From NCBI RefSeq assembly GCF_040958095.1, contig NC_091237.1, positions 15,415,036 to 15,479,035 on the forward strand: a stretch of DNA of 64,000 nucleotides, given 5' to 3'. Both the position numbers and the translations under genes were made by a program. This document shows, piece after piece, positions 26,101 to 29,100 of this stretch. Below the pieces are notes generated by a model. The model was not told where the DNA came from, ran no database searches, and saw nothing but the letters and a program-made list of their open reading frames with translations. The DNA comes from Procambarus clarkii. Taxonomy: Eukaryota; Arthropoda; Malacostraca; Decapoda; Cambaridae. Every line of letters begins with the position of its first letter. Position 1 is the first letter of the stretch.

Positions 26101-29100
26101 CATGTATGTAAACAGCTAAAAATTTATGAATTTACAAACATCAAACTGCATAATACAGAAAATGCAAATTTGCTGATTATGATGGACATTAAAAGATATT
26201 TACAGTATTCCCACTTTTCTTCTGCACATGGGAAAAAATAGTAAAATATGTACAGAAAGCTTCAGTGAGTGCTTTAAAATACAGCAGACAATAGCTAGTA
26301 CGCTGCATCACAATTGACCCACCACCAAGTACATGGTTACTAAATTTATACCAGAATTTTAGTGTATGACATATTGCCGTCATGACCATAGATGACCATT
26401 TGAATTATGTACATAGCCATAGCTGCTGCCACAGGCATTTTATTAATTTTCATGTATTCCTTTATGTTTAATGTATTGTACCGGTACTCTATATCCAATC
26501 CTGAGATGCATAAAAAACCATTTTGGTGCTTCTGGTATGTAAAGGAAATGCCAGCAAATTTATGAGAAGGTATAAGCTCTTCACAATGTGGCAGATATTT
26601 ACAGGGAGATCTTTGTGAGAAACCCCAGTAGTCACAGACCATTAAGCTTTACAATGACAGCAGCAGGCTCTCCAGCCCGAGTTTTGGGGTCTATGCGCCT
26701 CGGGCAGTGGGGAGAATGTTAATGCTTACATTTGTCTTATTTAATTTTCCTTATTTTATAAATTTAAAACAAATATTCTAAACTATATACAGTATGTATA
26801 TTGATAAGTATTTCTGAAAAGTTTTTTTAGAACTTATCTGCTTTTTGTCCTATAAGTTCCAAGTACAGTTTGTGGCTGGCAAGAATGCACTATGCTTAGA
26901 AACCTACTACCCCATCCCCTTCCTCTTGTACTAGCCAATATCTACTGTATTAACAACAGCGAAAATGGATGAAATTTATAACATAGAAAACCTAAAAGCT
27001 TTAAATAAAATCTGCACACACACACCCACTAAAACAGTAAACAGTGAAAGCAATGGCTAGAAATCGTTTTAAGCATTTAATGCTCTAGAAGATTTACTAG
27101 TGGTATATCAAGGCAATATTTTTCGAGGAGCCCACCTTGCCACTGTGTTGGGAGAAGACTGCATCTATGTCGAAAGGTGAGGATGAGAAGGGCTTGACGG
27201 GAACAAAATCAAAAAAGGATTGTGTGCAAAGGGAAGTAGAACAAGAGTCAACAGGAGATTGTGAGCCTTGTGTATCTAAACATTCATGATTTATCTTTAA
27301 TGGAACAGTTTGAGAAATTAAAACATTATTACAATGCAAGGTACACGAGGGTGACTGACTCGATAAGGATGACACAAATGGTGCGTTTTGCAACCTCCTC
27401 TTGCTCCCCTGTATGAGCTTTTTATTTTCTTTGGAGTTAGGTTTATATAATGCGGAGGGACACTTAGATACATAAGGACAGGACAAATCTGAATAAATTA
27501 AATCGTCTCTCTGAGTTTGCACCTCACAGAAAGACGGGCAAGGGGACAGTTTCAAGGGTGGAACACAATGAGGCCTTCTCTGTTTTAGATATGGGCAGTA
27601 GTATGGTTCCTTAGTGATGAACTCCTGAATCACCTCGCAGACGCACGATGCCTGTTTCATCAGCATAAGGAATAATGTTATCAGATGCGGGGAAACATAC
27701 GTTCTGGATTCATTTTATATCCAATTAATGCATCTACAATTACCTACTACTATTGCCATATTGTATCTTAATTAATAATTTAATTGTATTGGTGGGTCAC
27801 ATTCTGGGAAACATAGGATTAAGGACTTGCCTGAAATGCTATGCATGCTAGTGGCTGTACAAGAATGTAAGAACTCTTGTATATATAAATAAAATAGTCC
27901 TTGAAAATAGAGCAGAACAAAAGCTACTCGAATATATACAAAAAAATAATGTGAAAGGATTCAAGGGAAGAATGACTGGCCATCATAAAGATATGTAAAG
28001 GGAGTGAATGACAGTCAATACTCAACAAAAACTTGTATATCACGCGCCCGAAACGCTGCGCGTACTAGTGGCTTTACAAGAATGTAATTACTATGCTATG
28101 TATCCTCACAATCCCAATGTACCTTCTTGTACATATATAAATAAATAAATTAATAAATACATCTCTGTACTGTACTGATGCTTCCTTAATATAGTGCTAC
28201 CCCTCTCTTCAAAAACTAGTACCAAACTTCAAAAACTTACTTCCAAAACTACTATTTTTTATATTATTTACTCCAATCTTTATCAATCTTTAAATGTCTC
28301 TTGTATCATGTGGGCACACTTACTAAAAACAATATCTTTCTGAACTACCTCACTTCATTGCCCTTAAAATGAAGATTGAGATGTCTATGGGAAAGCAATT
28401 GTGCAAGCAGGCAGGGTGACGCTCGTTGTACTTGCCAAGGAGCACTAAGAAATAACTCATTGGCTCGTTCAGCCATCTACCCTTTCCTCCACCAGGTGGC
28501 AGCACCAGAACCACAATACAGTATGTAACTAAGCCGTATCTCATTCTTTCCTGTCTTTATGTCAGAGGGAAGCCAGAAAACCAGATTAAAATAAAGCGGC
28601 TTGTTTATCCATTTAAAGTTTCTTTGCACAATGGATTCATGCCAATACTGTATAAAATTCTTTGGTGTGTGTGTTTATAAATATTGTTTGGTTTCGTATT
28701 TTCAATAATCTGCCTGAGTCAGTGGTGCTCAGCATGCAGTGAGCATGAACCAGCTTCCCAGCTTTGCTTAATTAACCTTTTGGAAGAAAGCAATTGGCAC
28801 TAAGCACTAGGTGCCTTCAGCAGCAATTCTACCTGGCATATATGATCGCAGGAGAGACAACGTCGTACATAGATCCTAAAGATTGAGAATTCTAGATTTA
28901 AGAACTATGATTCACTTGCAGAATAAAATATGGAAACAAATTTACTTGCACAATTGTTTTAGTTATTTTGTACAGTTAACTAATTGTTATTTAAACTTGT
29001 TAATTTAAATTATCTATTTATACAGACAGGTGAAAGACACAGTATATAGACTATCCTGATAATAGGTGAAGAACCTATTAATGGCCAAGAGTGTTCTATA

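Follow-up and report, generated by a model that had tools for sequence, protein, structure and literature searches.

The 172-codon open block in the last intron of a NAMPT gene, which had been put forward as a candidate exon, is probably chance non-coding intron sequence, and we give this reading a probability of about 0.6. The intron sequence would simply happen to lack stops over 205 codons and, also by chance, would carry near the ends of the open frame a GT that makes a good donor and an AG that could serve as acceptor. In the normal transcript, 30098 would be spliced to 23140 with removal of the block, and any inclusion of the block would represent occasional cryptic-exon noise. We infer that the block is not used in transcripts.

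The window, meaning the whole 64,000-nt stretch of DNA that was analyzed, comes from an assembly of 4.03 Gb and contains a minus-strand NAMPT gene, as judged by comparison with Pfam and PDB sequences. Five of the eight exon candidates of this gene have a NAMPT_N or NAPRTase match in Pfam; the other three (43591-43830, 41537-41731 and 23012-23140) gave no Pfam NAMPT match when searched singly. The gene, its last intron and the block are laid out as follows.

Near 55843: possible first NAMPT coding exon
50209-50412, minus strand: NAMPT exon candidate, Pfam NAMPT_N/NAPRTase match
40960-41235, minus strand: NAMPT exon candidate, Pfam NAMPT_N/NAPRTase match
37328-37558, minus strand: NAMPT exon candidate, Pfam NAMPT_N/NAPRTase match
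35875-36156, minus strand: NAMPT exon candidate, Pfam NAMPT_N/NAPRTase match
43642-43770, 41540-41680, 33721-33840 and 31743-31823, minus strand: further exon-like pieces of NAMPT, picked out by eye
30098-30283, minus strand: penultimate NAMPT coding exon, matching PF04095 and residues 391-449 of vertebrate NAMPT (PDB sequences, E 3.6e-15)
23141-30097, minus strand: last NAMPT intron and host of the block, 6957 bases, GTGAGA...TTTCAG
27097-27714, minus strand: whole open frame, 205 codons (27714-27100) followed by TAG (27099-27097)
27136-27651, minus strand: the block, a candidate exon of 516 bases or 172 stop-free codons, phase 0 at both ends
23009-23140, minus strand: last NAMPT coding exon with its stop; 23012-23140 aligns with residues 456-485 of vertebrate NAMPT (PDB sequences, E 0.008)

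The description of the block in the initial annotation as stop-free, bounded by AG and GT and frame-neutral was borne out. The flanking matches to NAMPT residues 391-449 and 456-485 place the block inside the last intron, whose two flanking exons join in phase 0; in vertebrate numbering this last exon junction, put between residues 439 and 440 in the initial annotation, lies between residues 449 and 456, and splicing 30098 to 23140 yields the ordinary NAMPT C-terminus. The 516 bases of the block are indeed free of in-frame stops on the strand of the gene, with AG before 27651, GT after 27136 and both ends on codon boundaries, such that the block is phase-compatible with both neighbors. Reading onward is also possible as claimed, since no stop interrupts the frame between 27714 and 27100 and the TAG at 27099-27097 closes it. 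In each of the five remaining frames, the block is interrupted by 8 to 13 stops, and antisense coding was rejected, as the three antisense frames contain 13, 9 and 8 stops.

Frame neutrality of this kind is what a lineage-specific cassette exon would require. Such an exon would insert 172 residues, mostly disordered and rich in Ser, Pro and Cys, directly ahead of the final strand of NAMPT, and the resulting second isoform would differ in stability, partners or localization. We consider this reading unlikely, even though the open frame extends beyond the block by just 21 and 12 codons, as in a real exon, and the length of the frame is unusual together with its splice pair.

The length was compared with several chance models. 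The longest frame on either strand stayed below 205 codons in all 1000 dinucleotide-shuffled versions of the intron (mean 105 codons, maximum 193). A frame of at least 205 codons did arise in 2 of 1000 local order-1 simulations of the intron and in 1 of 150 simulated windows after repeat masking, which left 57,170 bases once strong tandem repeats and a retroelement frame were set aside. The next-longest real frame in the masked window has 174 codons. When the whole unmasked window was shuffled, the longest frame averaged 143 codons and reached 220 at most among 200 shuffles; the open frame ranks first in length among the 13 unmasked frames of at least 100 codons in the window. The length of 205 codons is therefore unusual for one intron. 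Across 4 Gb, hundreds of such frames would be expected, a very rough figure extrapolated from a single event in 150 simulations.

The masked retroelement frame is a 635-codon open frame on the minus strand at 8657-10564 with Pfam matches to DUF1759, DUF1758 and aspartyl protease, which we take to be the gag-protease region of a BEL/Pao-type retrotransposon. Long minisatellite arrays, whose repeat units measure 15-26 bases (32459-33317, 46819-47358, 55085-55661, 56054-56468 and 59507-59779), sit in or next to the NAMPT gene, and some of them are open in more than one frame.

Splice sites were scored with a generic metazoan matrix not trained on this species, which weakens the support that they lend to a cassette exon. 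With this matrix, the donor after 27136 scores 9.3 (percentile 99.6 among all GT sites of the strand) and the acceptor at 27651 about 0.75 (percentile 91.6 among AG sites). Both values lie within the range of the NAMPT exon ends, whose donors score 3.9 to 12.2 and acceptors -4.9 to 5.2 when the best site within 9 bases of the approximate exon ends is taken; no AG lies near the assumed start at 50412, and the last exon has no donor. That AG and GT fall on codon boundaries is by itself cheap evidence: the open frame contains 128 phase-0 AG/GT pairs spanning at least 10 codons. An equally good phase-0 pair spanning at least 150 codons is rarer, occurring in 1-2% of stop-free frames when these are simulated (37 of 2000 and 21 of 2000). 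Among the 13 unmasked frames of at least 100 codons in the window, the best frame-neutral splice pair belongs to the open frame; with a lower length limit, the best pair there becomes 27136-27522 (score 11.0, 129 codons) instead of 27136-27651 (score 10.1). Taken jointly, length and splice sites exceed what we would predict for a single intron if chance alone were at work.

Codon periodicity, which the initial annotation had named as a check, gave a divided answer: models trained on known coding sequence (P 0.61-0.89) and single-base composition spoke against coding, and an untrained dinucleotide test spoke weakly for it. Single-base composition by codon position in the block was not significant (chi2 10.4, P 0.20 to 0.32), and of 15 overlapping NAMPT slices, each 172 codons long and together ranging from 9.4 to 30.6, 14 lay above the block. 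Under a single-base model trained on NAMPT, frame 0 of the block ranked second of the three sense frames (-10.6 vs -8.3 and -11.8), compared with 10 of 10 left-out NAMPT pieces that scored best in their true frame.

We then consider a dinucleotide-by-phase model whose training data were NAMPT and the retroelement frame, and for which stop-free simulations served as the null. All 10 left-out NAMPT pieces again scored best in frame. Frame 0 of the block was the best of its sense frames (-16.4 vs -19.9 and -27.4), but one antisense frame outscored it (-8.1), the null averaged -8.5, and the block did not rise above this null (P 0.79); its margin over the other sense frames was 3.5, compared with a null expectation of 11.8 (P 0.71). 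Three training sets with matched nulls gave the block z values of -0.78, -1.25 and -0.29 (P 0.77, 0.89 and 0.61). Eight true coding slices, equal to the block in length, were scored with the model of the other gene: seven reached z 1.43 to 3.04 (P at most 0.074), whereas the eighth scored like the block (z -0.86). Therefore, the trained test would usually, but not always, reveal a true exon. Addition of this control left our probabilities unaltered. Five other open frames of the window ranged from z -1.57 to 1.93 in the trained test; the highest value belonged to a mildly coding-like 138-codon frame near the start of the window (250-663, plus strand; P 0.032, one of the five frames tested).

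The untrained dinucleotide-by-phase test was weakly positive for the block (z 2.31, P 0.018), and the signal was stronger in the block than in the whole frame (z 1.83), a point in favor of a cassette exon. For comparison, NAMPT slices gave z 1.3 to 5.2 and retroelement slices 2.3 to 4.8; the five other frames of the window fell below the block (z -1.3 to 1.1). The block thus has some phase structure, though of another kind than that of the known coding sequence nearby.

The translation of the block contains 27 Ser, 17 Pro and 13 Cys among 172 residues and no Met or Trp. Measured against the intron model, the excess is large for Pro (z 4.5), Ser (z 3.1) and Cys (z 2.2), but it is modest against the block's own base composition (Pro z 1.1, Ser z 1.1, Cys z 2.4), and Ser/Pro/Cys richness was dropped as support for an exon. 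Serine is encoded by 24 TCN and 3 AGY codons, compared with 17 and 10 in NAMPT (Fisher P 0.054), which hints at a strand rich in pyrimidines, and not at selection for serine, as the source of the TCN bias.

A second way to use the frame would be as an alternative last exon, in which 30098 is joined to 27651 and reading continues to the stop at 27097, with polyadenylation just downstream. Here, 184 new residues would replace the NAMPT C-terminus, and the outcome would probably be a truncated enzyme or lower output. The frame is open to that stop, and the following element lies beyond it.

27013-27081, minus strand: putative intronic poly(A) signal, namely ATTAAA at 27081, 16 bases past the stop, then a GT-rich run at 27029-27013, noted by inspection

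However, such hexamers are common, with six AATAAA/ATTAAA in the 2.4 kb scanned, the trained models detect no coding signal here either, and the strong donor after 27136 would be left unused. We regard the alternative last exon as the least probable of the explanations considered.

Relatives of the block were sought widely. The DNA search of its own genome, in which very common words were skipped and one candidate was scored, found only the block's own copy, and the protein search of the genome (10 candidates scored) returned, besides this copy, two matches at E 1.9 and 2.1 and hence no homologue at E of 1 or below. The weaker of these, with 28% identity over residues 57-137 (E 2.13), was rejected as chance; its pairwise E of 5e-7 was discounted because it ignores the picking of this match from 4 Gb. 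No family was matched at E of 10 or below in Pfam or PHROGs. The best matches in NCBIfam (E 0.18) and among PDB sequences (E 0.32) are at chance level and were rejected as relatives, and none of 12 pattern matches among viral contigs was confirmed as a relative. In a single-sequence AlphaFold model, the block had a mean pLDDT of 31, a value of limited meaning when a sequence has no relatives. The want of relatives, of a domain and of a foldable model nevertheless counts against a cassette exon.

The block might also be a relic of unrelated coding sequence, such as an old retrocopy, a nested gene or an element fragment, left open by chance. An open frame with some phase structure would fit this origin, as would a GC content above that of the immediate flanks and the interspersed repeats just upstream. 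These repeats (27780-27896 and 28050-28156) are common to other parts of the window, and none lies in the block. Nevertheless, the searches above revealed no repeat copies, subject to the skipping of very common words in the genome search, and no element or viral domain; they likewise yielded no second genome copy or homologue and no matching element or viral family. The GC step, moreover, is ordinary for the window. Frame-blind segmentation chose 27125-27707, nearly the open frame, and its score exceeded that of every one of 60 permutations, for which a coarser scanning grid was used. When the segmentation was applied to 49 overlapping tiles from across the window, however, their median score equaled that of the block, and 24 of the 49 reached at least 8.5. 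Therefore, the GC step was also dropped as support for an exon. We judge the relic improbable.

Two other repeat-like features of the window deserve mention. At 23606-23834 lies a near-perfect palindrome, whose reverse complement matches it at 94.8% across 230 bases; it contains a tRNA-like run (GTAGCTCAGT...GGTTCGAATCC) and perhaps consists of two SINE copies head to head. At 45623-45693 on the plus strand, ARAGORN reports a tRNA-Val that is absent from Rfam at gathering score and is perhaps a tRNA-derived repeat.

Taken together, the balance leans against a functional exon, short of refutation. In our judgement, it is a priori rare for a conserved enzyme to gain a new exon of 172 codons, and coding tests with positive controls did not support one; we favor chance intron sequence, and a cassette or alternative last exon, considered jointly, appears doubtful. 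Somewhat more doubtful is a lineage-specific, regulated second form of NAMPT in which a disordered, Ser/Pro/Cys-rich cassette of 172 residues precedes the last strand or replaces the C-terminus. If the exon were real, one animal lineage would have added a large new segment to a metabolic enzyme that is highly conserved, providing a clear test case for exon birth, and a regulated isoform would constitute a second form of a key enzyme of NAD salvage. If it is not real, the block is a reminder that chance can produce open frames of about 200 codons, splice sites of passable quality included, in a genome of 4 Gb.

Compared with known NAMPT (PF18127 and PF04095), the host gene is the same, with exons recognized on either side of the block, whereas the block itself has no match to any NAMPT in the PDB sequence set. 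Among the matches listed, the titles and abstract openings of the NAMPT literature mention no insert of such a kind. With intronic polyadenylation and alternative last exons, the block shares an open frame that runs to a stop and a putative signal of ATTAAA with a GT-rich run downstream; motifs of this type are frequent in AT-rich introns. Many cases of exonized intronic sequence derive from repeats, and the block differs from them in that the search of its own genome found no repeat copies. It otherwise resembles cryptic or newly exonized intronic sequence in its intronic position, its usable AG and GT and its open frame.
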